DNA of 64,000 bases from NCBI RefSeq assembly GCF_963665995.1, contig NZ_OY762512.1, positions 1,922,001 through 1,986,000 on the forward strand, in the 5' to 3' direction. The notes below the pieces were generated by a model. It had not been told where the DNA came from, did no database searches, and saw only the letters and a list, made by a program, of their open reading frames with translations. Below are positions 288 to 18,294 of this stretch, piece by piece; positions within the stretch are counted from its first letter, which is position 1, and the number at the start of each line of letters is the position of its first letter. Position numbers and translations under genes: made by a program. This stretch comes from Pleurocapsa sp. FMAR1 (GTDB lineage: Bacteria; Cyanobacteriota; Cyanobacteriia; Cyanobacteriales; Xenococcaceae).

Positions 288-2873
288 TTGACCCTTGCCT
301 TTGATAACCTTGTTGATGCCGATATAGCCAAGCCAGCTAGATATTTGGGTAACGAACTTGGTGCAGTACATAAACCCTGGACAGAAGCCGAGGTGCGTTG
401 GGTGCTGACTTATCCTGAAGTCTATGAGGTGGGGGCATCAAATTTAGGTCATATTATTCTTTACAATATAATTAATGCTCAACCGCAACAGTTGTGCGAT
501 CGCACTTATCTTCCCGCACCCGATCTTTCAGCAAAGCTGCGCTCGACTAATACTCCCTTATTTGCTCTAGAATCAAAGCGATCGCTTTTAGATTTTGATA
601 TTTTAGGCTTTAGTCTCAGCTATGAGTTAGGGGCAACAAACATCTTAGAAATGCTGAGTTTGGCAAATATTCCCTTAACCTGGCAAGAAAGGGATGCAGG
701 AGACTATCCGTTAATTTTTGCAGGGGGACAAACCGCTACATCTAACCCCGAACCTTATGCAGATTTCTTTGACTTTATTGCTTTGGGTGATGGAGAAGAG
801 CTTTTACCCGAAATTGGTCTGGTCATTAAAGAGGCTAAGGCAGCAGGATTGAGTAAAGCAAAGTTATTACTAGATTTGGCGCAAGTTCCTGGGGTATACG
901 TTCCTAGATTCTATAAAATGGCGCAAGATGGCTCAGTTCATCCTACTAACCCTGAAGTACCTAAGCGTATATTACGTCGGGTTGCTACGCCTATTCCTGC
1001 CTATTCTATTGGCTTAGTTCCCTTTATTGAAACCGTACACGATCGCCTTACCGTAGAAATAAGAAGAGGCTGTACTCGTGGTTGCCGTTTTTGTCAGCCA
1101 GGAATGCTAACTCGCCCTGCCACAGATGTTGAACCAGATAAAGTCGTAGACGCAATTACCAAGGGAATGCGCGCCACTGGCTACAATGAGTTTTCTTTAT
1201 TATCTCTTAGTTGCTCTGATTATTTAGCTCTTCCAGCAGTAGGAATGGAGATTAAAAATCGCTTGCAAGAGGAGAATATATCCCTGTCTCTTCCAAGCCA
1301 AAGAGTTGATCGTTTTGATGACAACATTGCCGATATAATTGGTGGCTTGAGAAAGTCTGGGTTAACCTTTGCCCCCGAAGCTGGCACGCAACGAATGCGA
1401 GATGTGGTGAATAAAGGATTAACTAATGAAGAATTACTCAGAGGTATTCAAACCGCTGTTGCCCGTGGCTGGAGTAAGGTCAAACTGTACTTTATGATCG
1501 GTTTACCTGGAGAAACTGATGTAGATGTAGCTGGTATTGCTGAAACGGTGCGCTGGTTGCGCCGAGAATGTAGTCAGCTTAGTAGTAAACGCCTTAACTT
1601 TAATATTACTATTTCTAACTTTACTCCTAAACCCCATACGCCTTTTCAGTGGCATTCTGTCTCTACCAGTGAGTTTAGACGCAAACAAAATCTATTGCGA
1701 GAAGAATTTCGCCGTATCAAAGGTGTAAAAATTAACTACACTGATGTCCGCATCTCGGCAATGGAAGACTTTGTAGGCAGAGGCGATCGCCGTTTAGCCC
1801 CTGTAGTTAAACGGGCTTGGGAATTGGGTGCAGGCATGGATTCTTGGTGGGAAAATTTAGATAAAGCTTATGGTGCTTGGTCACAGGCGATCGCTGAAGC
1901 GGATTTAACCTGGAAATATCGTCAGGTAGAAGATGGAGAATGGAATATCTTTTTAGATGCCGATACAGCCACCTCTATTGAAGATGCCACTGATGCACCC
2001 TTACCCTGGGATCATATCAATACAGGAATAGATAAACAATGGCTAAAAGAAGACTTGCAGAGAGCTTTAGACGCTGCTACTGTGCCTGACTGTGCTTTTG
2101 ATGGTTGTTCTCACTGTGGCGTTTGCGGAACAGATTTTGGACACAATATTGTCGTTAAGCCCCCAGCTATTCCAAAATTTGCAGGACATTACAAACCAAA
2201 CCAGCATAAAGAGCAAAAGATCAGAATGTGGTTTGGGAAAGTTGCCGAGATGGGATTAATCAGCCATCTCGATCTAGTGCGTCTATTCGACCGGGCAATT
2301 CGTCGCGCTGCTTTACCTATTTCCTTTACAGGCGGATATCATCCAGGACCAAAAATCTCTATTGCCAATGCTTTGTCTTTGGGTATTACCAGCAATGGTG
2401 AAATTGTTGATTTTGAACTGACCGAAGACATGGATGTAGAAGAGTTTCGCACTAGGTTAGAGGCACAACTCCCAGATAATCTTCCTATCTACAAAGTAGA
2501 AGATATCGATCTCAAGTCTTCAAACGCTAGTCGTTTAATGGATAAAGCAGAATATCTGATTACCGTACAGTCAGAAGAAGATATAGATGCAGCCTGGAGT
2601 CAGTGGATTGATGCTATTAAAAACAGTCAAGAAATATTGTGGGAGAAATTCACTAAGTCAGGGAATAAAAAAGTCGTTAATTTATGCGATCGCCTGTTCT
2701 CCCTCTCCTTAGAATCTGAAACGGATAATCAAGCAGTAATTCGCTTTACTGGTAGCTGTCGCAACGATGGAACAAACCTCTCGCCAGATAACTTTGTTTA
2801 TATGTTGGAACAAATAGCAAAGATTGAGTTTCAATTACTTAATGTGCATCGTCAGCAATTGATTTTAAACTAA
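288..2873 (+). CDS. TIGR03960-family radical SAM protein with C-terminal DUF2344
   Basis: Large two-part protein of 861 residues. The N-terminal part resembles B12-binding-like radical SAM proteins, and the cluster motif CTRGCRFC (Cys262, Cys266, Cys269) binds the 4Fe-4S cluster that cleaves SAM. A second cysteine group (CAFDGCSHCGVC) lies near residue 605. From about residue 645 a DUF2344 domain follows, in the arrangement usual for cyanobacteria. Substrate and reaction are not established for the family; RNA modification is often guessed. The start is the TTG at 288, chosen because AGGAG lies 10 bases upstream (273-277) and no better ATG exists. The last 76 codons have a decayed second copy at 4606-4875. 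Confidence 0.9.
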   Translation: MTLAFDNLVDADIAKPARYLGNELGAVHKPWTEAEVRWVLTYPEVYEVGASNLGHIILYNIINAQPQQLCDRTYLPAPDLSAKLRSTNTPLFALESKRSLLDFDILGFSLSYELGATNILEMLSLANIPLTWQERDAGDYPLIFAGGQTATSNPEPYADFFDFIALGDGEELLPEIGLVIKEAKAAGLSKAKLLLDLAQVPGVYVPRFYKMAQDGSVHPTNPEVPKRILRRVATPIPAYSIGLVPFIETVHDRLTVEIRRGCTRGCRFCQPGMLTRPATDVEPDKVVDAITKGMRATGYNEFSLLSLSCSDYLALPAVGMEIKNRLQEENISLSLPSQRVDRFDDNIADIIGGLRKSGLTFAPEAGTQRMRDVVNKGLTNEELLRGIQTAVARGWSKVKLYFMIGLPGETDVDVAGIAETVRWLRRECSQLSSKRLNFNITISNFTPKPHTPFQWHSVSTSEFRRKQNLLREEFRRIKGVKINYTDVRISAMEDFVGRGDRRLAPVVKRAWELGAGMDSWWENLDKAYGAWSQAIAEADLTWKYRQVEDGEWNIFLDADTATSIEDATDAPLPWDHINTGIDKQWLKEDLQRALDAATVPDCAFDGCSHCGVCGTDFGHNIVVKPPAIPKFAGHYKPNQHKEQKIRMWFGKVAEMGLISHLDLVRLFDRAIRRAALPISFTGGYHPGPKISIANALSLGITSNGEIVDFELTEDMDVEEFRTRLEAQLPDNLPIYKVEDIDLKSSNASRLMDKAEYLITVQSEEDIDAAWSQWIDAIKNSQEILWEKFTKSGNKKVVNLCDRLFSLSLESETDNQAVIRFTGSCRNDGTNLSPDNFVYMLEQIAKIEFQLLNVHRQQLILN

Positions 2874-2967
2874 TTAATTTTGGTGGGCATAGAATTAAAG
2901 ACTTAAATATCTGCGTACTTTGTCCACTCTACGCAAAAGCGATCGCTCTAAGTTTCCCCACATACAG

Positions 2968-3690
2968 TTAATAGTAAAACCATCTATAGTTCCCGCCATA
3001 TTTTTGAACAATATCCTCTATCCAAGTTGGCGTGGATTTTCCTTTATGTTCATATAACTCAGCATAAGCAAGCATCATATTTGTCAGGCTGGGAAATAAT
3101 ACATTCATTTCGCAAGGATCTTCTTCATTTACGTAATCACTATAAGTCACAAGTACGGGAGAAGTTTCCTGTTGTTTCTTGCTTCCAACTATTGATAGCA
3201 CAACATCTTCTCTGTAAGAAGTACAGAAAGGTAACAAACGTGGATTATCATTAATTAACATATCGCAATAACAACTCATTGCTTTCTGTAATGTCGCAAA
3301 TCGAGCAGGATAATCGGGAAAATAAAAGTAATTATAAACAGAATTCCAGTCAGTATCATCAGATATCCCAATAGGTAAACAACCATTGCCCATCAAATAT
3401 AAATCGTAAAATTCTTGAGGCAGTTGAAAACGATACGGTTCGACTATTTCTTTAATTTGTTTTATGCTCAAACGAGGCTGATAGCTGCCTAAATCTTTAT
3501 TGACAAGCTCTAATTGTTTTGGTTCTAAATTTTTAGGAGTGGCATTTTTAAGTGATTTATAGGGGGGATGATAAGCAATCAAAGTTGCTGGTAAATTGTC
3601 ATGATTGCTTTGCTTTTTGCTGTGTGCAATTCTCTTAATTGCCTCAACTATTTGGGACATTCTTTGTTTCTTTATTATTACTTTGTTCAA
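2968..3690 (-). CDS. SMI1/KNR4 (SUKH) family protein
   Basis: A 240-residue cytosolic protein. The middle carries the SUKH signature: a helix ending in LPQEFYDLYLMGNG, followed by a strand-rich region with FYFPDYPARF and a C-terminal DYVNEEDPCEMNVLFPSL segment. SUKH proteins are frequently immunity proteins against contact-dependent or polymorphic toxins, though many are of unknown role. No toxin gene is adjacent, but a HigBA-type pair follows on the opposite strand. The gene lies inside the segment bounded by the radical SAM gene and its decayed 3' copy, so it may have arrived with the TA pair. The ~60-residue N-terminal basic region is not part of the domain. Confidence 0.75.
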   Translation of the reverse strand: MNKVIIKKQRMSQIVEAIKRIAHSKKQSNHDNLPATLIAYHPPYKSLKNATPKNLEPKQLELVNKDLGSYQPRLSIKQIKEIVEPYRFQLPQEFYDLYLMGNGCLPIGISDDTDWNSVYNYFYFPDYPARFATLQKAMSCYCDMLINDNPRLLPFCTSYREDVVLSIVGSKKQQETSPVLVTYSDYVNEEDPCEMNVLFPSLTNMMLAYAELYEHKGKSTPTWIEDIVQKYGGNYRWFYY

Positions 3691-3843
3691 TTTAGCTTAA
3701 GAAATGGGCGATCGCATTTATGTGAGAAAGAAACGTAATGCAATTTTCGAGTAAAATCCAAATTTGCATTTTTACTCTCAAAATGAGAGAATAGACAAAA
3801 GCACCAGTTTATTTAAATTTGCCAAAAATTATGGAAAGACTTA

Positions 3844-4143
3844 ATGCACTTAATTTCAATTCGCAATCTTCGTTTTGATGCTGCAAAACATCCAGATGCG
3901 ATCGCGCCTATTAATAATTGGTATGCAACAGCAAAAAAGTCACAGTGGACAAATCTAGAAGATGTCCGCAGAATTTATCGAGATGCCGAAGCAGTAGGAA
4001 ATTTTACAGTATTTAACATTAAAGGTAATAAATATCGTTTGATTGTTGGTATTGATTACGAAAACCAAACTGTTTATCATAAATATTTTTTAACTCATTC
4101 AGAATACGATCAGGATAAATGGAAAAATGACTCTTACTTTTAA
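3844..4143 (+). CDS. higB: HigB-type mRNA interferase toxin (HigB_toxin family)
   Basis: A 99-residue protein matching the HigB toxin family, which cleaves translated mRNA on the ribosome. Visible landmarks are WYATAKKSQWTNLEDVRRIY, then the beta-sheet core FNIKGNKYRLIVGIDYENQTVY and the terminal KYFLTHSEYDQDKW characteristic of this family. The antitoxin gene starts 17 bases before this gene stops, giving translational coupling. Toxin before antitoxin is the usual order for HigBA. The product is full length and shows no disruption, so the pair is probably active. Confidence 0.85.
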   Translation: MHLISIRNLRFDAAKHPDAIAPINNWYATAKKSQWTNLEDVRRIYRDAEAVGNFTVFNIKGNKYRLIVGIDYENQTVYHKYFLTHSEYDQDKWKNDSYF

Positions 4144-4525
4144 TAAAACTGCCTACTCCAATCTTTTGAGTCAATATATACCTCAAGTAATTGAAACAGA
4201 AGAAGAATACGATCGCGCCTTAACAATAGCAGAAAAATTAACTTTTGCTAAAAATCGTACTTTAGAAGAAAAAGCCTTACACAAGTTAGTAGTAGCTTTG
4301 ATTGAGGCTTACGAGACAGAAAACTATCCAATGAAAGAATCTACACCTCATGAAATTCTGCAACATTTAATGGAGTCTAGTAGTACCAAACAAGCTGACT
4401 TGGTAAGCGTAATTGGTTCTAGCGGAGTAGTGTCTGAGGTAGTGAATGGTAAACGGTCTATTAGCAAAGCACAAGCTAAAGCATTAGGAGATTATTTTAA
4501 AGTTTCATCAAATTTGTTTATTTGA
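4127..4525 (+). CDS. higA: HigA-type antitoxin with C-terminal XRE helix-turn-helix
   Basis: A 132-residue protein that neutralises the HigB toxin encoded just upstream and normally represses the pair's promoter. The N-terminal half (EYDRALTIAEKL, then ALHKLVVALIEAYE) is the conserved toxin-binding region of this antitoxin family. The C-terminal half carries an XRE-type helix-turn-helix (LMESSSTKQADLVSVIGSSG, then VVNGKRSISKAQAKALGDYF). It overlaps the toxin gene by 17 bases, as expected for a coupled operon. Confidence 0.85.
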   Translation: MTLTFNKTAYSNLLSQYIPQVIETEEEYDRALTIAEKLTFAKNRTLEEKALHKLVVALIEAYETENYPMKESTPHEILQHLMESSSTKQADLVSVIGSSGVVSEVVNGKRSISKAQAKALGDYFKVSSNLFI

Positions 4526-4605
4526 GCAGCATTTTTCAGTGTATCTTCTACGGTTTTTTCTCTAACTAGAATAAAGCGATCGCTTTTATACAAGATCGGC
4601 TAAAG

Positions 4606-4875
4606 AAAAAATTTACTAAAGTCTGGTAATAAAAAGTTTATTAGCTTGCGCGTAGCGAAGCCATGTCGTAAACTTATCGCTTTTTCTCTTTAAACATAGA
4701 ATCTATCTCAGGTAAGATATTTAATACCGCTATTCTATGCTTTACTGCTAGCTGTCGTAATGATGGTACAAATCTATCAACAGATAATCTAGTTTATATG
4801 TTGGAACAGGTAGCTAGGATTGAAGTGCAGTTGCTTAGTGTACATCGCCAACAGTTAATCTTAGCTAAATTGTAA
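4606..4875 (+). pseudogene. decayed copy of the 3' end of the radical SAM/DUF2344 gene
   Basis: From 4741 to 4875 the sequence translates to a close match of the last 42 residues of the protein at 288-2873, for example SCRNDGTNL, VYMLEQ and VHRQQLIL, ending in its own TAA. Upstream (4606-4740) the match to codons from about 2647 onward continues but is broken by frameshifts and by an inserted cyanobacterial repeat (GCGTAGCGAAGCCATG near 4649). Of the 42 codons compared, 18 differ silently and 8 change the amino acid, so the copy diverged while still under selection for protein function. It is a remnant, not a gene. It marks the far end of the SUKH/HigBA segment. Confidence 0.85.
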
Positions 4876-5416
4876 GGTATTATAATTTAAGTTGTTAGAT
4901 AATGTAATTACAGTTAAATTCAAAAGTCTCAATTATATTACTGTTCTTAGATAATATTCTTTAAGTATTTATTCTGGTCTAACGTAAGTTATTCTAAAAC
5001 TAGTTTTTTGTCTCTACAAATAATAATCGTGTCAAAATGTAACCTATATTGCATTTTTACTTATCTTCTTGCTTAACTTCCTTAAATTCACTGGTTTAAA
5101 TCCGCTTAAAGTAGGATGCTTTAGATAGCTCAAAGCAACAGCGCGCTTTTGTAAGTTTGCTGAAGCATTCTTAGGTTATGTCAATCGAATCATAGGTAAG
5201 GTTGTATTATCTTAACCTTTACTTCGACTGCTATAAATAAATTTATGTAATGCTAAATCAAATGCTAATGAAACCAAGCAACATACATATCATTTATCAT
5301 ATTTCAGAGTTAATTGATTCGACAATATGTTGTGCTTGAATGTAGTTTTTTATGCTCTTGCTTTTATTTACATACAAAGAATTTAAACTTTAAATCCTAA
5401 ATAAAATATCTCGCTT
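4876..5416. other. AT-rich stretch without a recognised gene
   Basis: About 540 bases between the decayed radical SAM copy and the sulfotransferase gene. No open frame of useful length, RNA gene or clear repeat was seen. It probably contains the sulfotransferase promoter. Confidence 0.5.
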
Positions 5417-6427
5417 ATGTCTTTTTCAATGATCGGAACTCAGCGTTCGGGTTCTAATTTGCTGCGCCTAATGCTCAATCAGGTAGATAATGTCGCTGCT
5501 CCTCATCCTCCCGATATACTGCAACGAATGATGCCTCTAGTCCCTCGCTATGGAGATTTGAGCAATAAAGACTCTTTTTATATGCTGGTTGATGATGTGT
5601 GCCGTCTTGTAGAGTTAAATCCTGTAACCTGGGAGTGGGTAGTATTGGATAGAGCAAACGTGGCATCTCGTTGTCGAGAACATTCTTTGGTCGCAGTCTT
5701 CTTTGCAGTCTACGATATTTTGGCAGAAACCTGGGGGGCAAAACACTGGTGCTGTAAAAGTCTGGCTAATGTTTTTTACCTGCCAGAAATTTATGCCTAT
5801 AGTCAAAATGCCAAGTTTATTTACCTGTATCGAGATGGTAGAGATGTTGCCCTATCTTTTCAAAAAGCGGTAGTTGGAGAAAAGCATATCTATCATATTG
5901 CTCAGGAATGGGCAAACGCTCAACGTCGAGCTTTACAGATGCGCAGCATTTTAGGTGAAGAGCATTTTTACAGTATTAGCTATGAGCAACTAGTTGCCAA
6001 TCCTGAATCTAGTCTGGAAGGTTTGTGTGGATTTATGGGCGAAAAATACACCCCTGAAATGCTAAATTTCCATCAATCCAATGAAGCAACAAATGTTGCT
6101 GCTTCTAGCTCTTTATGGAAAAATGTTACCAAGCCCATCATGAAGGAAAATATTCAAAAATTTCTCCAACAGTCTACAGATGAGGAGATTATGATCTTTG
6201 AACTAGTAGCTGGGGATGTTTTAGATGCTCTTGGTTATGAGCGAGTTAAAATCGCTTCAGGTAACAAAGCAGCGTTTAGCGATATTGCCATCAAGCAGTT
6301 TGATGAAATAAATCAGCACCTCAAGCAGGAAAAAAGAAGGGAAATGAATCCAGAGGATCTCCAAAGACGCGATCGCCAAGCTAGTTTTTTAAAGGAAATT
6401 CAAGGTCGTAAATTAGTATCTGTCTAA
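5417..6427 (+). CDS. sulfotransferase family protein
   Basis: A 336-residue enzyme of the PAPS-dependent sulfotransferase fold. The 5'-phosphosulfate loop is at residues 7-20 (GTQRSGSNLLRLML) and the 3'-phosphate-binding motif near residue 135 (YLYRDGRDVALSF). Such enzymes move a sulfuryl group from PAPS to a hydroxyl or amine of a carbohydrate, lipid or small metabolite; the acceptor cannot be told from sequence. The start ATG follows an AT-rich leader with no strong ribosome binding site. The gene stands alone, with no sulfate-activation gene beside it. The C-terminal tail after residue 290 is charged and probably disordered. Confidence 0.85.
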   Translation: MSFSMIGTQRSGSNLLRLMLNQVDNVAAPHPPDILQRMMPLVPRYGDLSNKDSFYMLVDDVCRLVELNPVTWEWVVLDRANVASRCREHSLVAVFFAVYDILAETWGAKHWCCKSLANVFYLPEIYAYSQNAKFIYLYRDGRDVALSFQKAVVGEKHIYHIAQEWANAQRRALQMRSILGEEHFYSISYEQLVANPESSLEGLCGFMGEKYTPEMLNFHQSNEATNVAASSSLWKNVTKPIMKENIQKFLQQSTDEEIMIFELVAGDVLDALGYERVKIASGNKAAFSDIAIKQFDEINQHLKQEKRREMNPEDLQRRDRQASFLKEIQGRKLVSV

Positions 6428-6571
6428 TTTATGTATGCAGTGGGCAGTAAAATATAAGCTCTATAAATATTCTTATATCTCACGGCCTGCGCTTATTGCC
6501 AAATATTTATAAGCTAATTTTAAAGCTGCTTGTAAGTTTAATCTCTAAAATGCCTAATCTTATCCAAAAGC

Positions 6572-7643
6572 ATGATTGAAAAAGTAGATTTTGAATTCTC
6601 TAAATCTCCCCTAGATTTTTCTGCGGTATCCTTACCTTATTTATGTGAGAATTTTCTCAAAATTGGTAGTACAGCCTTTGGCGGCTTTATGGCTTTGGTT
6701 TGCGTCATCGAAAACATTATGGTGGACAAACAGCAACTTTTAACCCATGAAGATATGCTTGATGGAATATCTCTAGCCAGCGTTTTGCCAAGACCAGTAG
6801 CTCGCTAACGTGGTAGCTTATGTCGGCTATCGTCTGCGAGGCGGTATTGGTGCATTGATTGCAGCTACAGCCGTATTATTACCTTCTTTTATTTTAGTAG
6901 TAGCCTCAACTATATTCTATTTACAAGCAGGAGAAATACCTGCTGTTAATAAGGTGTTTGCTGGATTTATTCCTGCGGTAGTAGCAATTATTATCGGTGC
7001 TGCGACTCGCATGAGTAAAAAAGCAATTAAAGGCTGGCGTGAAGTAAGCATTGCTGCCGTTGCTGCTATTTTGCTGAAAACAATTGGTGGATTTTATATT
7101 ACCCTAATTGTTATTTTGGGGGCGGGATTAGTTGGTTGGCTTTGCTATCAGGGCAAGGTAAGGAAAACTTTAGCTGCTAATCCTTTACCTCAACAATCTG
7201 AGCCTTTAAATATTAAAAGTATAGTTATTCCCCTGGGTATCTTGGCAGTAATTTTGCTATTTTCATTGCTAGCTTTACCTTTAGGGTCAGATAGCCTCGC
7301 CAAAATATTTGCTACTTTTGCGGGGATGAGCTTAATGCTCTTTGGAGGCGGTTATGTCTTTATTCCCATGATCCAAGAGGTAGTAGTTAACAACTATCAC
7401 TGGGTCACTCAAAGTCAGTTCAGTAATGCGATCGTCATGGGGCAAATTACTCCTGGACCAATCTTAATTAGTGCAGCATTTATTGGCTATGTAGTCAAAG
7501 GAATTGTCGGCGCAGCCATAGCAACCGTAGCTATCTTTGCACCTCCTGCCTTGCTGATGGTAACTATGTCTCATCTATTAGATGTCAATCGATGTGGAAG
7601 TTTTAGCAAATCTTGCAAAAAGTATCTACACATGGATAGATAA
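6572..7643 (+). pseudogene. chrA: chromate transporter (ChrA) pseudogene
   Basis: Two frames together encode a CHR-family membrane transporter. The first (6572-6808) gives FLKIGSTAFGGFMALV and SLASVLPRPVA, then runs into a stop. The second, from 6810, resumes with VAYVGYRLRGGIGALIAA and continues through the second CHR half (FGGGYVFIPMIQE, MGQITPGPILISAAFIGY). One extra base near 6803-6808 explains the shift. The expected last helices are also missing: after MSHLL (about 7575) the sequence no longer resembles ChrA and a group II intron reverse-transcriptase fragment follows. With two lesions the gene is almost certainly non-functional. Confidence 0.8.
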
Positions 7644-7782
7644 TCGAATCTACTTTGCAACTGGAAACGCTGGTTCATCACCTTTTCTGTTGCTATTTCA
7701 CGACACCTTTAGTAGCAGTTCTACTGAATACGTGAAAGTCAAAGGAGATAAAAGCCCCTTCGACGGTGATTTAATCAATTAA
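7582..7782 (+). mobile_element. fragment of a group II intron reverse transcriptase (C-terminus)
   Basis: A short frame whose last 40 residues resemble the C-terminal maturase/HNH part of cyanobacterial group II intron proteins: IYFATGNAG, FLLLFHDT, then YVKVKGDKSPFDGDLI before a stop. In intact proteins the last motif is followed by YW and a basic tail. No intron domain V or VI and no upstream RT motifs are present, so this is a fossil. It directly adjoins the truncated end of chrA, which suggests that intron insertion or a later deletion removed the transporter's 3' end. Confidence 0.55.
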
Positions 7783-7800
7783 TTATATAAGTACGTAACA

Positions 7801-8196
7801 TCAGTTATCAATCACTGCAATACATTCAATTTCAACCAATACATCTTTAGGTAAACGAGAAACTTCGACACAGGCACGGGCTGGGGCTGTATCTTCGGCA
7901 AAATATTGGGCATAAACTTGATTCATTAGGGCAAAATTGGCTAAATCAGTCAAGAAAACGCTAGTTTTAATCACATTATCCCAATTAGCGTCAGCCTCTG
8001 TAAGTATTGCCTCAATATTGCTCATTACCTGCTTGGTTTGGGCGGTAATGTCTCCTTCACCCACAATATTTCCTGACTGGGGATCTAAAGGTATTTGTCC
8101 AGCAACAAAGAGCATTTGCCCAGAAGCAGCGATCGCCTGATTATAAGGACCAACTGGGGCAGGAGCTTTGTTTGTGTTAATAACTTTCTTAGACAT
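7801..8196 (-). CDS. ridA: RidA family enamine/imine deaminase
   Basis: A 131-residue protein of the RidA/YjgF/UK114 family, of usual length. It hydrolyses reactive enamine and imine intermediates released by PLP enzymes such as threonine dehydratase and so protects other PLP enzymes. Visible family features are [20 protein letters not shown] near the N-terminus and the active-site region [20 protein letters not shown], which holds the conserved arginine and glutamate. It lies 25 bases downstream of menA on the same strand and may be co-transcribed with it. Confidence 0.93.
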
Positions 8197-8221
8197 AAAT
8201 AGTTAGATATAGGCTTCAAAT

Positions 8222-9124: not shown

Positions 9125-9429
9125 AAAAATGATGAAGCGGGCAAAAAATGCGATCGCTTCGCTCTGAAGACGACCTCTAATACACTATCAGGTATAGCTA
9201 TAAGGTATTTATCGAGTTTCACGAAAGTTTATCTAAAACCTCATTTTTTTCGTTTTTGGTTGATCAAGCTTAAGCTACTCAAAGCTATATATTGCATTGA
9301 TTTACTATGATTATTGCAGCTAGTAGCCTATAATAAATATCATAAATTTGCTTTTTTTTGTTAGTTATTTACTAATAGATAGCCAGCTTAATATTATTTG
9401 GTAATTTTGCTGCCGAAACTTTTTTGAGA
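9125..9429. other. divergent menA/menF intergenic region
   Basis: About 300 AT-rich bases separating the divergent menA and menF genes. One HIP1 octamer lies near 9150. No RNA gene or repeat was seen. The region is presumed to hold two promoters, but no motif is clear enough to place. Confidence 0.4.
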
Positions 9430-10875
9430 ATGACACAATTTAAAAACTCTATGCCTTTTTTAACTCAGTCTAATAATTTAGTTTTAGAAGATAATCATGC
9501 GGAATTTGAAAACTTTTGGTGCAATAACAAGTTAGATTTTGTAGTAAATAAAGATACAAAAATTCTCAGCTTTGCTTGTCAAATTCCTAACGTCGATCCT
9601 CTTGCTTGCTTACAAAGCTTTAGTCATACCAATACTCTACATTTTTATTGGGAGAATCGCAGTAAGCAAGAAGCAGTAGCAGCTTGGGGCATTGCTCGTC
9701 AAAATTATACGGGGTCTGAATCGCGATTTGACCTAGCACAGAGTTTTGTAAAAGAGTGTTTTGGGCAGGTGATTAGAGAAGGTGAAAATACTTTAAGTCT
9801 AGGCAAGCCAAGTGTATTTTGTAGCTTTACTTTTTTTGCTGATCCTAAAGAATCTGAACCATTTAAATCAGGTACATTATTTTTGCCTCGTTTTCAAATA
9901 GTTAAAAAGAATAAAAACTGCTGTTTGATTGTAAATTTTCCTCTCGCTAAAAAACAAGACAAAAGTAATTTTGTCAACCTTATTCAACAAAAGTTAAATA
10001 ATATTAATTGGTCTGATGTCGGGCGATTAAATGTTGAGAAGGAAAACAATTTTTCATCTACTGAGCGAGATCAGTGTCAAGATCCTAACTATTTTAAGTC
10101 TGTAGTGGCATCTGCGTTAGATGCGATCGCCGTTGATGAGCTAAGTAAGATTGTCATTGCCCACACTACAGATATACGCTCACCTGTGCCTTTTCAGGTA
10201 ATTAAATCTCTTAGCAATCTGCGTCAGCTTCATCCAGACTGCTATATATTTTCCACCAGCAATGGTTCGGGACAAAACTTTATTGGTGCTAGCCCAGAAC
10301 GCTTGATTAGCGTCCAAAATAGACAGCTTGTCACCGATGCCCTAGCGGGTTCTGCTCCTAGAGGCGCAAACAGTACAGAAGACTTACATTTGGGTAATTT
10401 ACTGCTCAAAAATAGAAAAGAAAAACGAGAGCATAAAGCCGTTAGCGATTTTATAATTGAGCGTTTACGGAGTATTGGCTTAAAACCTCAGCAATTACCG
10501 CTGCAACTGCTCAAATTATCTAATATTCAGCACCTCTGGACACCAATTTATGCTCATTTACCGCCAGATATTGAACCTTTAGAAATTGTGGCTCTGCTTC
10601 ATCCAACTCCTGCTGTTGCTGGGGTATCTACAAAAGTTGCCTGTGAAAAAATTCGTCATTATGAAAAATTTGCTCGCTCCTTATATGCTGCTCCTTTAGG
10701 CTGGGTAGACTCAGAAGGAAATTGTGAATTTATTGTCGGTATTCGTTCGGCATTAATTGATGGCGATCGCGCTCGACTCTATGCGGGTGCTGGTATAGTT
10801 TCTGGCTCTAACCCCAGTAAAGAATTTGACGAGGTACAGTTAAAATTACAGTCGCTTTTGAAGGCTTTGGTTTAA
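9430..10875 (+). CDS. menF: isochorismate synthase MenF
   Basis: Converts chorismate to isochorismate, the first step of phylloquinone synthesis. The C-terminal half shows the chorismate-binding domain: FIGASPERLISV, then DALAGSAPRGAN, and near the end LHPTPAVAGV, FARSLYAAPLGW and RLYAGAGIVSGSNP, which carry the Mg- and substrate-binding residues. About 480 residues is normal for the family. I chose the ATG at 9430; an in-frame TTG at 9424 would add two residues. menD follows 140 bases downstream on the same strand. Confidence 0.92.
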   Translation: MTQFKNSMPFLTQSNNLVLEDNHAEFENFWCNNKLDFVVNKDTKILSFACQIPNVDPLACLQSFSHTNTLHFYWENRSKQEAVAAWGIARQNYTGSESRFDLAQSFVKECFGQVIREGENTLSLGKPSVFCSFTFFADPKESEPFKSGTLFLPRFQIVKKNKNCCLIVNFPLAKKQDKSNFVNLIQQKLNNINWSDVGRLNVEKENNFSSTERDQCQDPNYFKSVVASALDAIAVDELSKIVIAHTTDIRSPVPFQVIKSLSNLRQLHPDCYIFSTSNGSGQNFIGASPERLISVQNRQLVTDALAGSAPRGANSTEDLHLGNLLLKNRKEKREHKAVSDFIIERLRSIGLKPQQLPLQLLKLSNIQHLWTPIYAHLPPDIEPLEIVALLHPTPAVAGVSTKVACEKIRHYEKFARSLYAAPLGWVDSEGNCEFIVGIRSALIDGDRARLYAGAGIVSGSNPSKEFDEVQLKLQSLLKALV

Positions 10876-10983
10876 TTTTTAATTGCCCCACCGAGGGAAA
10901 CAAAGGCGTATGGTTCGCCATATGTAGCCAGATTCGTACCGCATAGCGTGTTGAAATCTGGTAGTTCACTGGTCATTAATAAT

Positions 10984-11017
10984 TGATAATTGATCATTGA
11001 TAATTGATCATTGATAA
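10984..11017 (+). repeat. tandem 14-bp repeats abutting the menD start codon
   Basis: Two exact copies of TGATAATTGATCAT (10984-10997 and 10998-11011) are followed by a partial third unit that runs into the menD ATG at 11018. TGATCA is itself palindromic. The repeat takes up the space where a Shine-Dalgarno sequence would be, so menD has no visible ribosome binding site. Similar ATTGATAATTG strings are common between cyanobacterial genes, so a regulatory role is only possible. Confidence 0.6.
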
Positions 11018-12730
11018 ATGATTGACTTTCGCAATGTAAACACACTATGGGCATCAATACTAGTAGAAACACTGTACCATTGTGGCTTGACCATGGCGGT
11101 AGTCTGTCCTGGTTCGCGCTCTACTCCTTTGACCATGGCATTTGCCAATCATCCAGGGATTGAAGCCATTCCCATTTTAGATGAGCGTTCAGCAGCTTTT
11201 TTTGCTTTGGCGAGAGCTAAGAAAACTGGTTTGCCGACGGCACTAGTCTGTACTTCTGGCACAGCAGGAGCAAATTTTTATCCTGCGGTAATTGAGGCAA
11301 AAGAAAGTTATGTACCTCTGATTGTTTTAACGGCAGATCGCCCACCTGAATCACGCCATTGTCATGCAGGGCAAACAATCGAGCAGACAAAGCTGTATGG
11401 TAATCTACCCCACTGGCAGTGTGAGCTTGCTCTGCCTGAAGCTAATTTAGCCATGTTGTGCTATTTGCGACAGAATATAGTCCAGGCTTGGGAAAAATCT
11501 CTTTTTCCTGCCCCTGGAATAGTACATCTTAATCTTCCTTTTCGCGAGCCTTTAGCCCCGATAGAACAACCAGAATTAGCTGAGTTTAAAAGTAAGTTTC
11601 CACTTCAAGACTTTTTTGAGGCAGTTGCTTGTCCTTTACCTATTAATGCTCAGATTTCTACTTTACCCTGGAATAATTGGCAAACTAAATCAGGAATTAT
11701 AATTGCTGGTTTGGCTCAACCAAAAGATCCTCAAGCTTATTGTCAGGCGATCGCAACTTTAGCGCAACTATTGTCTTTTCCTGTCTTAGGCGAAGCATTA
11801 TCTCCTATTAGAAACTACAGTTCTCTCAATCCTTATTTAATTTCTACCTATGATTCAATTTTGCGTCAGAATCAGGCAAGCAAAGAACTTATTCCTGAAG
11901 TAATTATTCAAATTGGCGAACTTCCCACCAGCAAACAGCTAAGAAACTGGCTAAATGATATTACTGTCGAACGCTGGATTATCGATACTCGGATTGAAAA
12001 CTTCGATCCTCTCCACGGAAAAACAATTCATGTTCACAGTTCAATTGAGCAAATTGCCCATAATCTCAATTCTCAGCTAGAAAACCGCCCCTGCTCAAAA
12101 TACTGCCATCAATGGTGTGAATTAGAAACCGCAACGAGAACTAATTTAGATAATCTTCTAAAATCTCTAGAGACAATGTATGAAGGTAAAGCTGCCTGGT
12201 TGCTTTCTCGTAGTTTACCCGCCACTACACCGATTTTCTTTGCTAACAGTATGTCAATACGTTATGCGGAATATTTTTGGCAACCAAATGATAATCACCT
12301 TGTTCCTTATTTTAGTCGTGGGGCAAATGGAATTGATGGCACCCTTTCTACTGCTTTAGGAATTGCCTATCAAGATACAGGGGTATTGTTAACAGGAGAT
12401 TTAGCTTTACTACATGATACTAATGGCTTTTTGCTGCATGAAAAATTTCAAGGGCATTTAACTATTGTGCTGATCAATAATAACGGTGGCGGAATTTTTG
12501 AAACGTTACCGATCGCCAATTTCGCCTTATTTGAAGAATATTTTGCTACGCCTCAGTCAGTTGACTTTGCTCAACTGTGCGCTGCCTATGATGTCGAACA
12601 TAAATATGTAAATGATTGGCAACATTTACAAGAGTTACTTGAAAATTTGCCGACAACAGGAATTAGAGTTTTAGAAGTTATTTGCGATCGCGTCCAGGAC
12701 GCTGCTTGGCTCAAGAACAATCTGTCTTAA
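11018..12730 (+). CDS. menD: MenD, SEPHCHC synthase
   Basis: A thiamine-diphosphate enzyme of 570 residues that joins isochorismate and 2-oxoglutarate in phylloquinone synthesis. The N-terminal Pyr domain shows VVCPGSRSTPLTMAF and the catalytic-glutamate region PILDERSAAFFALARAK. The C-terminal PP domain shows RGANGIDGTLSTALGIA, GDLALLHDTNGFL and LINNNGGGIFETLP, which bind the diphosphate and magnesium. Length matches the family. The N-terminus (MIDFRNVNTLWASILVETL) fits other cyanobacterial MenD proteins, which confirms the start despite the absence of a ribosome binding site. Confidence 0.95.
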   Translation: MIDFRNVNTLWASILVETLYHCGLTMAVVCPGSRSTPLTMAFANHPGIEAIPILDERSAAFFALARAKKTGLPTALVCTSGTAGANFYPAVIEAKESYVPLIVLTADRPPESRHCHAGQTIEQTKLYGNLPHWQCELALPEANLAMLCYLRQNIVQAWEKSLFPAPGIVHLNLPFREPLAPIEQPELAEFKSKFPLQDFFEAVACPLPINAQISTLPWNNWQTKSGIIIAGLAQPKDPQAYCQAIATLAQLLSFPVLGEALSPIRNYSSLNPYLISTYDSILRQNQASKELIPEVIIQIGELPTSKQLRNWLNDITVERWIIDTRIENFDPLHGKTIHVHSSIEQIAHNLNSQLENRPCSKYCHQWCELETATRTNLDNLLKSLETMYEGKAAWLLSRSLPATTPIFFANSMSIRYAEYFWQPNDNHLVPYFSRGANGIDGTLSTALGIAYQDTGVLLTGDLALLHDTNGFLLHEKFQGHLTIVLINNNGGGIFETLPIANFALFEEYFATPQSVDFAQLCAAYDVEHKYVNDWQHLQELLENLPTTGIRVLEVICDRVQDAAWLKNNLS

Positions 12731-12750
12731 CCTCTTGATTAGTCTAAACT

Positions 12751-13650
12751 TCAGTAATTAATAAATTCTTGTATTGTTTGCCAAACTTGCTCAACTAAAT
12801 TAGAACTACCACTATCAAACCAATGGATGTTTTTGTTTTTTCTAAACCAAGTGCGCTGGCGTTTGGCAAATTGACGGGTGTGAGTAACAGTTAGAGCGAT
12901 CGCCTGTTCTAAATTAATTTCAGCAGCTAAATATTGTTTGATTTCGCTATAGCCCAAGGTATTTAACAAAGGTAGATTCTTACCGTATTTATGGCAGAGA
13001 TAGTCTACCTCTTGGACTAATCCCATCTCGATCATTTGCTTAGTGCGGATGGCGATTCTCTTGTCTAAAGCTGCCACATCGCCGTCTAAGCCAATCTGTA
13101 AAATAGGATAATTAGGTGGATTTTCGCCTTGTTGGGCGGTAATAGGAACACCCGTAACATAAAAGACTTCTAAGGCTCTTAAGGTTCTAAATTGGTCGTT
13201 AAGATGAATTTTTCTGGCTGCTTCAGGGTCAACTTGAGCTAACCAGCCGTGAATTTGTGCTTGTCCCAGAGAAGACAATTGCGATCGCAATTCTGGCTGT
13301 GGTGATACTCTGGGAATCTTTAAGCCTTTAGTAATTGCATCTAAATATAATCCCGTACCACCCACCAATAAAGGCAAAGAATGATTGCTAGTCTTAATCA
13401 ATTCTTGAGTTTGCTGCTGATATTCTGCTAGAGTCAATGTCTCGGTTGGCTCACAAATATCAATTTGGTAATGGGGAACTGATTTTTGTTCGGCTAACGA
13501 TGGTTTGGCTGTGCCAATATCAAACTCGCGGTATATCTGCCGAGAATCTGCGCTAATGATCGCTGTGTTTAAACGTTGAGCAATTTCTAAAGCTAAACCA
13601 GATTTACCGCTGGCAGTCACACCACAAATAACAATTAGCATATATGCCAT
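12751..13650 (-). CDS. miaA: MiaA, tRNA dimethylallyltransferase
   Basis: Transfers a dimethylallyl group to A37 of tRNAs that read UNN codons. The P-loop is GVTASGKSGLAL near the N-terminus, followed by SADSRQIYREFDIGTAKPS (the substrate-tRNA aspartate region) and PLLVGGTGLYLDA. The C-terminal region holds RQFAKRQRTWFRK, the conserved tRNA-contacting arginines. About 299 residues is usual. The start could be this ATG or a second one three codons in (13641), nearer the P-loop. The gene converges with menD, 20 bases away. Confidence 0.95.
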   Translation of the reverse strand: MAYMLIVICGVTASGKSGLALEIAQRLNTAIISADSRQIYREFDIGTAKPSLAEQKSVPHYQIDICEPTETLTLAEYQQQTQELIKTSNHSLPLLVGGTGLYLDAITKGLKIPRVSPQPELRSQLSSLGQAQIHGWLAQVDPEAARKIHLNDQFRTLRALEVFYVTGVPITAQQGENPPNYPILQIGLDGDVAALDKRIAIRTKQMIEMGLVQEVDYLCHKYGKNLPLLNTLGYSEIKQYLAAEINLEQAIALTVTHTRQFAKRQRTWFRKNKNIHWFDSGSSNLVEQVWQTIQEFINY

Positions 13651-13742
13651 TACGTTTTTAGATTATGACAGCCCTTTTGAATTGTGATTCGCCTCTAGGA
13701 TTCATAACGTATCACATCAATAAATATTGTAGGTCATGAATG

Positions 13743-16463
13743 TTAACCAAAATGTTTCATTGCTAAAGGCTGTAGTTTGTATTTAAGAGAATCAATTTCT
13801 TTAAGTTCTAAACCTCTTTGAAACACTTGATCGATGGGTAGCATTTGCCCCTCAATGGTCATGAACTTGTGATCTTTGGTAGCACGTATACTTAAGCCAT
13901 TATCCAAAGTATATTCAAAAACTTCTTGTATACCGCGATCGTGCCACTGCGCTACAGGCTGAGTATAAACTAAACCATTCTTATCTACGGTATAAACGCT
14001 ACATTCGATTTTTGACTCAACTATTTTGCCAATGGGTAACGCCCCATATTCGACGGTATGTATTTCTGTGTCGTAGCTGAGGCAATACTCGGCAAATAAT
14101 ACCATCTGATCGAATAGTTCGTTTGCTACCTCTTTCCTAACACCATTTTTGGCCGAACCATCAATAAACTTCTCTCGATGCTTCTCCATTTCTGCTAGCT
14201 TTTTTTTACCCATGCAGCGACGAAGTAAATCAGCTTCACCTAAAGAATAACCTGCCAATTCCTGAGCAATTTTCATAATTTGCTCTTGATAGACAATTAC
14301 TCCATAGGTTTCTTTGAGGATGGATTCCAATAGAGGATGCTGATAACTAACCTGTTCTTTGCCATGTTTGCGATTAATAAAAATCGGAATTAATCCTGCG
14401 TCTAGAGGTCCTGGACGATAGAGAGCAGAGATAGAAGAAAGATCTTCAATTCCCGAGGGTTTTAAGTCTTTGGTAATCTGTTTCATGCCGTCAGATTCGA
14501 GTTGAAAAATGCCCTCTAAATTGCCAGCGCGGAAGAGTTTATGAGTCTTTTGAATATCGTCAGGCAGCTTTTTATGCGTACCCTTAGCGATGATTTCTAA
14601 TGCCTTGCGTTCATCTAGAGGTATTTGATCTAAATCTAAAGTAACACCCTGGGTTTTCTGAACTAGACTGGCTGCTCGCTGAATGGTAGTTAGATTCTTC
14701 AAGCCTAAAAAATCCATTTTCAACAGACCCATAGCCTCAACATCTTCCATGTAATATTGAGTAATTACTGAGCCATCATTATTTTTTTGTAGAGGTACGA
14801 TTTCATCTAAAGGTTGGGAAGAAATAACTACTCCCGCAGCATGAACCCCAAAAGTTTTATTTGTACCTTCAATCCGAATTGCCATATCAACCCAGTTACG
14901 AACTGCAACCGAACCGATTTCCTCTTTATTATCGTCATAAATGGGTACGTTTTCGTTTTCATAAGCCTGTTTAAAAGCGGGTTCGGGAGTGCCTGCTGAG
15001 ATCATTACCTTAAGCTTAGTCGGCTTCCCTCGCACTACAGGAATCATCTTAGCAATACGGTTTTGTTCGCCAAAGTCGATTCCTAATACCCTGCCAACAT
15101 CTTTTAATACCGCCTTGGAAGTCATGCGGTTAAAGGTGATAATTTGGGCAACATTTGCCTCACCATACTTCTCGGTAACGTATTTAATCATATCGCTACG
15201 GCGATCGGGACAGAAATCTGTATCTACATCAGGCATAGACTTCCGTTCGGGATTGAGAAAACGCTCAAACAGTAAACCGTGATGAATTGGGTCGATATTA
15301 GTAATTTTGAGGCAATATGCCACTAATGACCCCGCAGCACTACCCCTTCCTGGTCCAACGGGAATATCATTATCTCTAGCGTATTTAATATAGTCCCAAA
15401 CTACCAGAAAGTAAGTAGAAAAGCCTTTTGACTGCATGACCTTAAGTTCTACCTCAAGCCTTTGCATATATTCAGCAGGAACTTCATGATGGTTGCGACA
15501 CTTGAGCCTTTCCAATAAACCCTGACGAGTAACTTCTTCTAAATAGCTATCAGCTGTATGTCCTGCGGGAACGGGATAATCGGGAATACGGGGTTCGCCT
15601 AAAATGTTGTAAGGTTGGACTTTATCGGCTACCTCTACGGTAGTTGCGATCGCTTCTTCAATCACATCATCTTCTAAATGATCGCGAAACAGCAGCCTCA
15701 TTTCCTCGGCAGACTTAAGATACTCCGTACCGCTATAGCGCAGTCGTTTGTCATCGGTAATGCGCTTTTGGGTCAGAATACACAATAGGGCATCGTGTGC
15801 CTCTACGTCATAGCAGGAAATAAAATGAGAATCATTCGTAGCAATGATTTGAATGCCCAATTTACGAGCAATATTGACAATTGCCACATTCACCATCCGA
15901 TCTTCTGGTGAACCATGATCCTGTATCTCTAGGTAATAATCATCGCCAAATAAATCCTGATACCATTTAGCTACCTTTTCTGCATGGACAAGATCGCCTT
16001 TTAAAATTGCCTGGGGAACTTCTCCCCCTAAGCAAGCACTAGTAACAATTAAGCCTTCGTGATATTTCTCTAATAGTTCTTTATTAATACAGGGACGGGC
16101 AAAAATACCGCTCCCCTGAGAGCCTTTGAGATGGGAAATAGTGGTTAGCTTAACTAAGTTTTTATATCCCTGGGTGTTTTTTGCCAACACCACCTGATGA
16201 TATTTGCGATGGCGTTTTTTCTTTTCGGTAATGTTGACTTCTATATCACCATTGATTACATACATCTCATTGCCAATTATTGGCTTGATGCCTTTGTGGC
16301 GACAGACTTTGATCAGTTCTATCGCCCCATACATTACCCCATGATCCGTTAGGGCGATCGCTGGCATATCTAATTCTAAAGCGCGATCGATTAGCTGAGG
16401 AATCTGAGATGCACCATCTAGCAAGCTATAGTCGCTATGAATATGTAAGCCAACAAAAGACAT
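13743..16463 (-). CDS. dnaE: DNA polymerase III alpha subunit, N-terminal part, with N-half split intein
   Basis: Encodes the N-terminal part of the replicative polymerase. The PHP domain is at the start ([28 protein letters not shown]). The polymerase core follows, with [16 protein letters not shown] and the catalytic aspartates in [12 protein letters not shown]. After about 793 extein residues, ending VLFAEY, the sequence enters the intein at CLSYDTE and stops 113 residues later. In cyanobacteria with split dnaE the C-half is encoded elsewhere and protein trans-splicing makes the full enzyme; no C-half lies in this window. I start at [15 protein letters not shown] (16463), as in other cyanobacterial DnaE-N proteins, rather than eight codons upstream. 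The 5' end is duplicated at 17369-17475. Confidence 0.97.
13746..14084 (-). other. N-terminal half of the split DnaE intein
   Basis: 113 codons at the 3' end of dnaE-N. Block A starts with catalytic Cys1 (codon 14082-14084, CLSYDTEI); block B is [10 protein letters not shown] with the conserved TxxH-type histidine; the segment [12 protein letters not shown] is typical of cyanobacterial DnaE inteins. The tail after [14 protein letters not shown] has an extra [13 protein letters not shown]. Cys1 and the block B histidine are present, so it should be able to splice with its C-half. Confidence 0.95.
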
Positions 16464-16549
16464 AAGTAATAAATTATCAATAATCAATTACCAATTATCA
16501 ATGATTTTATTGGTGTCGTGGGGAAATTGGGTATAAATATTTATGATTT
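16357..16549. repeat. 193-bp direct repeat, copy at the intact dnaE 5' end
   Basis: Covers the first 107 coding bases of dnaE plus 86 bases of its leader. It matches 17369-17561 along its full 193 bases without gaps and with only four substitutions. The two copies flank the VapBC-type toxin-antitoxin pair. Two of the four differences lie in coding sequence and both are silent. Confidence 0.95.
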
Positions 16550-16695
16550 GAGCGTAGGGCGAGCGCTTCTAAATAATAAATACTTGCCATTTTTAATTTT
16601 TAGATGTGGCAAGCAAAAATAGCTAATATTTTTGCGGATATACTTATAGGAAAACCACTTTTTACTTACTTTAGCAGAAGGTGCTTTTCTATAAA

Positions 16696-16932
16696 ATGAC
16701 TGAACTATTAAAACAAGCGATCGCCAAGCTCGAAAACCTGTCTGATAACGAACAGGATAATATTGCTGCAATTATTCTCGAAGAACTTGAAGACGAGCAA
16801 AAACGAAAAAATACTTACTCGTCAGACAATCTTGCCGACTTGATTCAAGAAAGGTTTGCTCAACTTGGCGGAATAGACAATTTACTTATTGCTTCTCGCG
16901 AGGCAATGCGCGAACCTCCCGAATTTGAGTGA
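16696..16932 (+). CDS. vapB: VapB/FitA-like antitoxin
   Basis: A 78-residue protein directly upstream of a PIN-domain toxin gene, with which it overlaps by one base (TGATG). The start is the ATG at 16696, giving MTELLKQAIAKLENLSDNEQ; a longer frame from 16681 lacks support. The N-terminal half is helical with acidic ends (IILEELEDEQ) and the C-terminal half (QERFAQLGGIDNLLIASREAMREP) is the probable toxin-binding tail. It should neutralise the PIN toxin and repress the operon, though I see no clear DNA-binding motif. A decayed homologous start occurs at 18256. Confidence 0.75.
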   Translation: MTELLKQAIAKLENLSDNEQDNIAAIILEELEDEQKRKNTYSSDNLADLIQERFAQLGGIDNLLIASREAMREPPEFE

Positions 16933-17348
16933 TGATTATTCTCGATACCAACGTTTTATCAGAATTAATGAAATCACAGCCCGATCTCTCTGTTGTTAGC
17001 TGGATCAAAAAACATAAACCAACAAACTTATTTATTACTACTTTAACTCAAGCAGAAATTCTCTATGGTTTAGAAATTCTCCCAATAGGTAAACGCCGTA
17101 ACGATTTAAAAGCAGCAGCTATATCTATGTTCGAGCTAGATTTTTCTGGGCGAATTTTGCCTTTTGATCCTGATGCAGCGGAATTATTTGCAACTATTGC
17201 TGCCAAAAGAAGAAAAATTGGACTTCCTATTTCTCAAATTGATGCTCAAATTGCCGCGATTGCACTTTCTCATCGTGCAACTCTGGCAACGCGGAATGTT
17301 AGAGATTTTGAGGAATGCAATCTCAATATAGTTAATCCTTGGGAATGA
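16932..17348 (+). CDS. vapC: VapC/FitB-like PIN-domain toxin
   Basis: A 138-residue PIN-domain ribonuclease toxin. The acidic active-site residues are visible: MIILDTNVLSELMK (Asp near residue 5), TQAEILYGLEIL (Glu) and ISQIDAQIAAIALSH followed by LATRNVRDFEEC (two Asp). Family members cleave tRNA or rRNA. The ATG at 16932 is preferred over a GTG one codon upstream, since it overlaps the antitoxin stop in the ATGA/TGATG style of coupled pairs. The gene is intact. The pair lies wholly between two 193-bp copies of the dnaE start region. Confidence 0.88.
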   Translation: MIILDTNVLSELMKSQPDLSVVSWIKKHKPTNLFITTLTQAEILYGLEILPIGKRRNDLKAAAISMFELDFSGRILPFDPDAAELFATIAAKRRKIGLPISQIDAQIAAIALSHRATLATRNVRDFEECNLNIVNPWE

Positions 17349-17361
17349 AAATATCAGTCTT

Positions 17362-17475
17362 TTAGGATATCGCTGGCATATCTAATTCTAAAGCGCGATC
17401 GATTAGCTGAGGAATTTGAGATGCACCATCTAGCAAACTATAGTCGCTATGAATATGTAAGCCAACAAAAGACAT
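17362..17475 (-). pseudogene. dnaE: truncated second copy of the dnaE 5' end
   Basis: The duplicated dnaE start codon and 35 codons are kept in frame, then the sequence leaves the repeat and stops, giving a possible 37-residue peptide that ends LELDMPAIS. The duplicated leader suggests that the same promoter signals may be present. It cannot encode a polymerase. Confidence 0.9.
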
Positions 17476-17561
17476 AAGTAATTAATTATCAATAATCAAT
17501 TACCAATTATCAATGATTTTATTGGTGTCGTGGGGAAATTGGGCATAAATATTTATGATTT
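17369..17561. repeat. 193-bp direct repeat, second copy of the dnaE 5' end and leader
   Basis: Same orientation as 16357-16549, four substitutions, no gaps. It ends where the sequence changes to the GIY-YIG pseudogene region. Together the copies bound an 819-base unit that carries the VapBC-type pair. Confidence 0.95.
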
Positions 17562-17628
17562 AAGGAATAGGGCGATCTCCTCTAATATAAAATGTGTTTG
17601 CTTATCAAACTTCATATGAGAATAATCA

Positions 17629-18056: not shown

Positions 18057-18255
18057 GTTTTTGTTAAAGCTAATTGAGATAATTAAAGCAAAACAAGTCA
18101 TAATGCAAAGCATAATCGCTTGGGTAAATATGCTGTGAAGTTGCACTAAACATAATTCTCTATCTTTCAGATGCAGCAAACAATAATATCCAAAATCTTT
18201 ACAAATATACTAATAGAAAAACTATTCGTTATCTTGCCAAAGGAGAGTCTATAAA

Positions 18256-18294
18256 ATGACTAAACTATTAGAACAGGCGATCGCTTTAATTTAA
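18256..18294 (+). pseudogene. stub of a VapB-type antitoxin gene
   Basis: Thirteen codons (MTKLLEQAIALI then stop) that match the start of the antitoxin at 16696 (MTELLKQAIAKL). The 90 bases upstream also resemble the leader at 16605-16695, including TCTATAAAATGACT, but with many changes. The rest of the gene and its toxin are missing. It overlaps the end of the hicB pseudogene. Confidence 0.7.

Follow-up and report, generated by a model that had tools for sequence, protein, structure and literature searches.

Toxin-antitoxin pairs flanked by duplicated gene ends, often cut at HIP1, in Pleurocapsa sp. FMAR1 and its relatives: a possible route of entry through homologous recombination

Long and variable target duplications, of the order of 100 bp, accompany the insertion of some restriction-modification (RM) units, according to passages of PMC3874152 and PMC1643837 that both cite Nobusato et al. 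2000, on Helicobacter pylori, for the long target duplication; this RM insertion work is cited in turn, in a section of a review on toxin-antitoxin (TA) systems, for the mobility common to both types of system (PMC2654758). Here we report on a 64-kb window of the cyanobacterium Pleurocapsa sp. FMAR1 (positions 1922001-1986000 of its single-contig, 5.43-Mb genome, hereafter G000) in which two TA pairs, VapBC and HigBA, each lie between an intact core gene and a partial second copy of it, and on comparable arrangements elsewhere in this genome and in its relatives. As in the RM inserts of the cited passages, an addiction-type pair comes with a direct target duplication of about 100 bp or more, no recombinase is named and relatives carry the unduplicated allele; unlike them, the cargo is a TA pair (or Uma2), the end of a neighbouring gene is duplicated, the cut falls often at HIP1, the eight-letter word GCGATCGC, and the alleles of the two copies can be traced, in several cases, to different lineages. 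Repeats on the order of 100 bp do copy the target here and relatives do show the unduplicated site, but the cargo with family hits consists of TA genes, plus Uma2 in G003 and G010, and not of RM genes. Hence the arrangement is better regarded as a variant of insertion with long target duplication than as a strict member of that class: its form is close, and it widens that class to TA pairs and HIP1-cut gene ends. No published description of TA genes, gene-end duplication and HIP1 in combination was found among the matches listed, at the level of titles and opening abstracts.

Our principal reading, to which we assign a probability of roughly 60%, is that TA insertions arrive together with one end of the gene in which they land, through homologous recombination with foreign DNA. 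Coordinates without a locus label are positions within the window, and G and L numbers denote genomes and fetched loci, respectively. The features of site B, where VapBC adjoins dnaE, and of site A, where HigBA adjoins a radical-SAM gene, are as follows (ORF, open reading frame; nt, nucleotides).

Site B
13743..16463, minus strand: intact dnaE-N (DNA polymerase III alpha, N part with split-intein N region), the neighbour gene, by family scan
16354..16361, no strand assigned: HIP1 GCGATCGC within dnaE at about codons 35-37, the end of the duplicated stretch, by junction comparison
16357..16576, minus strand: duplicated dnaE 5' end and leader, by sequence comparison
16681..16932, plus strand: VapB-like antitoxin ORF, cargo, antitoxin by position
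16929..17348, plus strand: VapC (PIN) toxin, cargo (PIN, 1.5e-15)
17369..17590, minus strand: truncated dnaE 5' end with its leader, second copy, 95% identical over 222 nt
17733..18056, plus strand: ORF of 107 amino acids whose homologue (77%) adjoins dnaE in G016, by sequence comparison
18165..18284, plus strand: remnant, at 73%, of the first part of the antitoxin ORF and of the sequence preceding it, beyond the truncated dnaE copy, by sequence comparison

Site A
288..2873, plus strand: intact radical-SAM/B12-binding gene, DUF2344 (TIGR03960/TIGR03936), the neighbour gene, by family scan
2743..2867, plus strand: duplicated 3' part of the radical-SAM gene, with homology in pieces from about 2655, by sequence comparison
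2968..3690, minus strand: SUKH-1-like ORF in the insert (24.6 bits, just under the Pfam cut-off of 25.4)
3844..4143, plus strand: HigB toxin, cargo (PF09907, 1.9e-30)
4127..4525, plus strand: HigA-like antitoxin ORF, cargo, antitoxin by position
4619..4863, plus strand: truncated second copy of the radical-SAM 3' end, broken at a HIP1 by a 23-nt insert, by sequence comparison

The initial annotation of the window had described a TA pair between an intact core gene and a partial copy of it, once with a 3' end (site A) and once with a 5' end (site B), and this is confirmed at 78% and 95% identity, respectively. Its observation that neither site holds a transposase or an integrase is likewise borne out by inspection of the ORF list for inserts A and B, and its remark that it knew of no standard element with this form leaves out insertion with long target duplication, a kind already described. 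At site A the radical-SAM gene is followed by the SUKH-1-like ORF, HigB, the HigA-like ORF and then the truncated 3' copy, which is made up of three blocks (4619-4652, 4676-4704 and 4739-4863), the last of them 78% identical to 2743-2867. The 23-nt insert at 4653-4675 splits the HIP1 of this copy between its third and fourth letters, the position at which the small repeat SDR5 is reported, in the relevant passage of PMC4390886, to insert inside HIP1. Pfam and NCBIfam scans name no family for the antitoxin ORFs of either site. The 107-amino-acid ORF of site B is an outer and possibly older cargo.

Gene-end copies are enriched around toxin genes in G000. Toxins were taken by Pfam family (13 PIN, 4 ParE, 11 HicA, one of them under the family cut-off, and 11 PemK, 39 in total; the HigBA pair of the window lies outside this set) and controls were 400 random ORFs drawn from 545 of 60-220 amino acids. 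Under an automatic gene-end rule, which postdates the inspection of the TA cases and was applied alike to both sets, a neighbour gene and its truncated second end enclose the toxin at 7 of 39 loci, as against 3 of 400 controls (p=2.5e-6), one of the three being a HicB locus itself; without the window locus and L338, both seen beforehand, the counts are 5/37 and 3/400 (p=1.6e-4). Any low-copy direct repeat spanning the locus occurs at 9 of 39 toxin loci, L374 and L335 being among these nine and outside the seven with a gene end, versus 12 of 400 random ORFs (p=1.9e-5; 8/38 toxin loci without the window, p=9e-5). The best repeat pair measures 78-222 nt in the seven TA cases of G000 (276 nt in G003, 269 nt in G009), and the inserted unit extends over 696-1012 bp from boundary to boundary.

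Local direct repeats were also scanned for in 100 stretches of 20 kb (60 from G000, 20 from G010 and 20 from G008) and in the window, full-length tandem paralogues and within-gene repeats being excluded by eye before counting. The scan gave 165 pairs, 58 of them low-copy and 107 dropped for having more than three copies in the sample; the copy-number filter is based on the sampled stretches only and is laxer by two copies for loci outside them, and the seven TA cases, with 0 or 2 copy-number hits, pass it either way. Further gene-end cases in the scan include L224 (a GntR end with a HicB-like ORF), L233 (a 3' end with four small genes), L235 (which encloses a YhaV-PrlF pair) and, in G008, L297, where the panC-cmk 5' end accompanies two ORFs that are TA-like by layout only and have no Pfam hit. 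Gene-end copies without TA genes exist as well (L233, L237, L252, L282), and they could suggest that the association is coincidental, small duplications being common in the accessory regions where TA genes live. We find this scarcely credible in view of the counts above, of HIP1 at six of seven TA boundaries, and of Uma2, also an accessory family: among the 30 of its 44 matches in G000 with a locus, a single one shows any flanking repeat, versus 9/39 for TA (p=0.02), and the idea that Uma2 shares the TA enrichment was rejected. Two of the loci bear multiple copies of one gene end: at L282 (13526-16533) three 3'-end copies of a gene that reads as a cation ATPase are separated by other ORFs, with no evident TA pair, and at L330 (651-2175) the 5' end of one gene occurs in three copies beside ParDE, as if insertions had been stacked.

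Some relatives lack both the TA pairs and the duplicates. The radical-SAM loci of 15/15 relatives show no 3' copy and no cargo match within about 6 kb, and upstream of dnaE in G011 and G012 there is neither a 5' copy nor a VapBC match. Likewise, the ResB-family gene of L375 has, in 12/12 other genomes of the genus, neither a MazF homologue nor a second 5' end in the fetched flank, which in G004 comprises only about 45 nt upstream. Since TA and duplicate are absent together, the duplicate did not precede the TA insertion as an independent event, which contradicts the objection that the initial annotation had foreseen; the comparison with control genes that it had proposed is the one whose outcome in G000 was given above.

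Truncation at HIP1 is an element added here to that earlier reading. The duplicated stretch ends at most 4 nt from the centre of a HIP1 seven-mer of the intact gene in six of the seven TA cases, namely dnaE, L330 (a DUF2201 putative metallopeptidase), L331 (an alpha/beta hydrolase), L338 (GntR), the L343 gene and L375 (ResB family). Positions within 9 nt of a HIP1 centre make up 2.8% of the G000 sample and 2.4-6.7% of the genes concerned, and for six in seven the binomial probability is 3e-9 with the rate of 2.8% and 6e-7 with 6.7%, the maximum among these genes. The HIP1 idea arose from the dnaE loci and L224, and four of the five TA cases not seen before fit it (p=3e-6). At the other end of the repeats HIP1 is found in one of the seven TA cases, and at L297 it lies beside the truncated copy and not in the intact gene. 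Site-specific recombination has been connected with HIP1, and HIP1 or its core has been proposed as a recombination site in Synechococcus (PMC4390886, citing Akiyama 1998 and Robinson 1997); the passages of that work drawn on here mention neither TA entry nor gene-end duplication, and our own data on this point are junction positions.

The dnaE locus shows the same arrangement in several relatives. A DnaE-N search of 40 genomes, including G000, located partial 5' copies near dnaE in G000, G003, G008 and G009, and a comparison of upstream regions (25 loci and the window; those of G001, G004, G005a, G009, G015 and G024 are short, the contig ending there) added shorter 5' remnants in G010, G016 and G017. 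The cargo between copy and gene varies: VapBC in G000, Uma2 in G003 and G010, HicBA in G017, an unclassified antitoxin ORF with a ParE-like toxin in G008, YefM-YoeB plus a ParE-like pair in G009, and a Uma2 C-terminal remnant with other ORFs in G016. The copies stop in or beside two HIP1-like words, one at codons 35-37 (G000, G008) and the other at codons 47-49 (G003, G009, G010, G016 and, by its repeat end, G017). The notion of dnaE as a general cyanobacterial hotspot was rejected: among 80 dnaE loci fetched from named genomes, 78 have 300 nt or more upstream, and one of these shows a 5' copy by protein match (L139, apparently the same record as G009); L144 and L152 show only DNA self-matches near dnaE. 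A class-wide DnaE search gave a match at E<=1e-7 in 372 of 388 genomes and two matches in six of them (G000, G068, G242, G279, G337 and G414), as read from the table and with places only among the matches listed. Outside this family, 5' copies of dnaE are rare among the loci and genomes searched.

Other features of these dnaE loci may be mentioned. The antitoxin N-terminus beside dnaE is common to the VapB-like ORF of G000 (16681-16932) and to ORFs paired with ParE-like toxins in G008 and G009 (L072 993-1211 and L082 2026-2244), so that a similar antitoxin start is found with different toxins. In G002, G004, G005, G010, G015 and G023, matches to dnaE show an in-frame gap (roughly 1.1-1.7 kb) around codon 385, and some of these genomes have a further break around codons 733-760, a pattern that resembles the effect of additional inteins. 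On a contig other than that of dnaE, G022 has a decayed 5' fragment of the gene comprising codons 24-56 (G022:C122:61641-61739).

Truncated and intact copies differ as alleles in several cases. Aligned with the sister species G006, the two G003 leaders show 2 differences in 106 sites (truncated copy) and 35 in 99 (intact gene); the intact dnaE differs from G006 at 15/117 sites up to nt 117 and at 109/2180 beyond, and over the first 105 coding nt the truncated copy shows 8 differences and the intact gene 13. The start-codon change aside, all 12 scored coding differences between the two G003 copies are synonymous. On these leader and coding comparisons the truncated copy is most simply read as the native end and the intact gene as a chimera with a foreign leader and 5' end, and recombination with foreign DNA at G003 is well supported. 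In G009 the copies show 17 differences in 145 nt, 13 of them at third positions, and represent two different alleles, while the truncated copy of site A is 84% identical to G011 and only 78% to its own intact gene. Pooled over 14 truncated/intact pairs, 110 of 180 differences fall at third codon positions (p=2e-14), an excess which argues that many copies are alleles from different lineages rather than decayed self-copies; foreign-DNA recombination is likely to have occurred in several other cases. The allele test at L343 covers G000 alone, and short 3'-end fragments of the L343 gene are present in G005 and, weakly, in G007.

The route that we envisage would begin with an incoming unit of about 0.7-1 kb, running from a HIP1 in the donor gene through the gene end with its leader and the TA pair to another HIP1. 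This unit would recombine with the recipient's copy of the same gene, leaving an intact gene with a donor-derived end, then the TA pair and then the recipient's own old gene end, cut at HIP1. We infer further that the unit may form by joining of HIP1 to HIP1, a role for this word beyond microhomology, that a single crossover may bring it in as a circle and not as linear DNA, and that TA addiction may retain it, since it would otherwise be lost when its flanking repeats recombine. We are rather doubtful of the complete form of this proposal, in which HIP1 would be a working recombination site and HIP1-to-HIP1 circles of gene end and TA pair would insert without integrase into the same gene elsewhere, locked in place by addiction.

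Linear incoming DNA, for instance from natural transformation, with a homologous joint on one side and an illegitimate joint at HIP1 microhomology on the other, is a possible if uncertain alternative, which has the foreign origin and the HIP1 joint in common with our principal reading and departs from it in the form of the incoming DNA. This would be homology-facilitated illegitimate recombination, in which a homologous and an illegitimate joint can leave a partial gene duplicate, a process that has been described for three naturally competent species and for conjugation in E. coli (PMC3240628); the events in the portion of that source used here are laboratory events with linear DNA, and no link to TA or HIP1 appears in it. 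A homologous joint together with one of short homology would fit this process: foreign DNA is joined by homology in the chimeric dnaE of G003, and the joint on the other side, at the short common word HIP1, may or may not count as non-homologous. Linear DNA predicts, however, that foreign sequence should run variably into the gene past the cut, whereas in G003, the single well-resolved case, the foreign stretch of the intact gene stops near nt 117, and in the truncated copy the decayed tail starts near nt 110. In both copies the allele seems to change at about the same position (nt about 105-117), a reciprocal switch that is predicted by a single crossover, which fits the G003 tail better. In pneumococcal merodiploids, too, transforming DNA makes a second copy bordered by repeats, but the duplications described in the excerpt of PMC3784515 span about 100-900 kb, arise via insertion sequence repeats and are not TA cassettes.

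Site-specific integrative elements or transposons that restored the target gene end and then lost their recombinase offer another explanation, and the restored end does resemble islands that use gene ends. It is nonetheless a very improbable one: reading of the inspected inserts, with Pfam applied to some of their ORFs, revealed neither an integrase nor a transposase, the repeats are 78-276 nt long and up to 25% divergent, not short identical cores, and the host genes are unrelated, with both 5' and 3' ends being used.

Tandem duplication within the genome, by which TA pair and gene end would be duplicated through unequal exchange at HIP1 or short repeats and the outer TA pair later lost, is in our judgement unlikely. 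Differently evolved alleles, mostly with third-position changes, at G003, G009, the radical-SAM site and L343 speak against it, and so does the absence of the TA pairs in relatives at ccs1, the radical-SAM gene and the dnaE of G011 and G012. In its favour are the three copies of one gene end at L330, the antitoxin-start remnant beyond the truncated dnaE copy of the window and the first two of the observations in the next paragraph, which lists what weighs against entry of gene end and TA pair from foreign DNA with a cut at HIP1.

Over 105 nt, the truncated dnaE copies of G000 and G008 match their own gene at 98%, which makes self-duplication possible there, and the copies of the L331 hydrolase and of L297 panC, with 4/17 and 2/10 differences at third positions, look like products of neutral decay. 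In G009 the informative sites split 11 to 6, which makes the native allele less sure. The changepoint at nt 117 of the intact G003 gene has a permutation p of 0.08 alone, on nt 1-2300; another run peaked near nt 2426, in the intein region. As regards HIP1, the TA case L341 is not cut at it, nor is the truncation at site A, and among seven further gene-end copies from the scan it marks the cut in the gene at L233 only, the YhaV-PrlF locus L235 being one of the six others; the proposition that every local gene-end duplicate is HIP1-cut was rejected on these seven. The Uma2-side junction is similar in G003, G010 and G016, so the dnaE cases are not all independent, and the enrichment was measured in one genome and four toxin families, under a rule written post hoc. 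Limited plasmid and viral searches found no free intermediate: of the two plasmid records obtained by blastn with the site B region, neither combines dnaE with a TA pair; DnaE-like matches occur in 290 plasmid records (15 of 290 listed), all at less than 60% identity; VapC relatives are common on plasmids (1033 records, the best 12 of 1033 listed); and four viral contigs have one DnaE N-terminal match each, at about 70% identity, with neighbourhoods unread for TA genes. The homology-based route put forward in the initial annotation is supported by recurrence, enrichment in this genome and foreign alleles; its circle is unproven, given the changepoint p of 0.08 and the lack of a free intermediate.

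Elsewhere in the window, an 88% repeat of about 198 nt surrounds 5.5 kb at 41845-47720, including two ORFs that read as IS630-type transposases, and is likely an ordinary repeat element, and a transporter gene (chromate-transporter-like by reading) is apparently split over three ORFs at 6572-7782. Exact 75-nt repeats, in many instances spaced by about 302 nt, characterize a multi-copy family at L217, L232, L235, L239 and L255.

The pattern described here suggests a simple way for TA pairs to enter chromosomes without transposase or integrase, and it links two open questions, namely how TA pairs move in the absence of mobile elements and what role is played by HIP1, among the commonest words in cyanobacterial genomes. 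It also provides a count that can be repeated in other genomes, that of TA loci at whose boundary a neighbouring gene's end is truncated at HIP1, relative to accessory-gene controls. A predicted by-product of this kind of entry is the replacement of tracts of core genes such as dnaE by foreign sequence, which would matter for the phylogenies built on them. If HIP1 does prove to be a recombination site, this would endow it with a function in gene flow and would provide a defined vehicle for chromosomal TA pairs.

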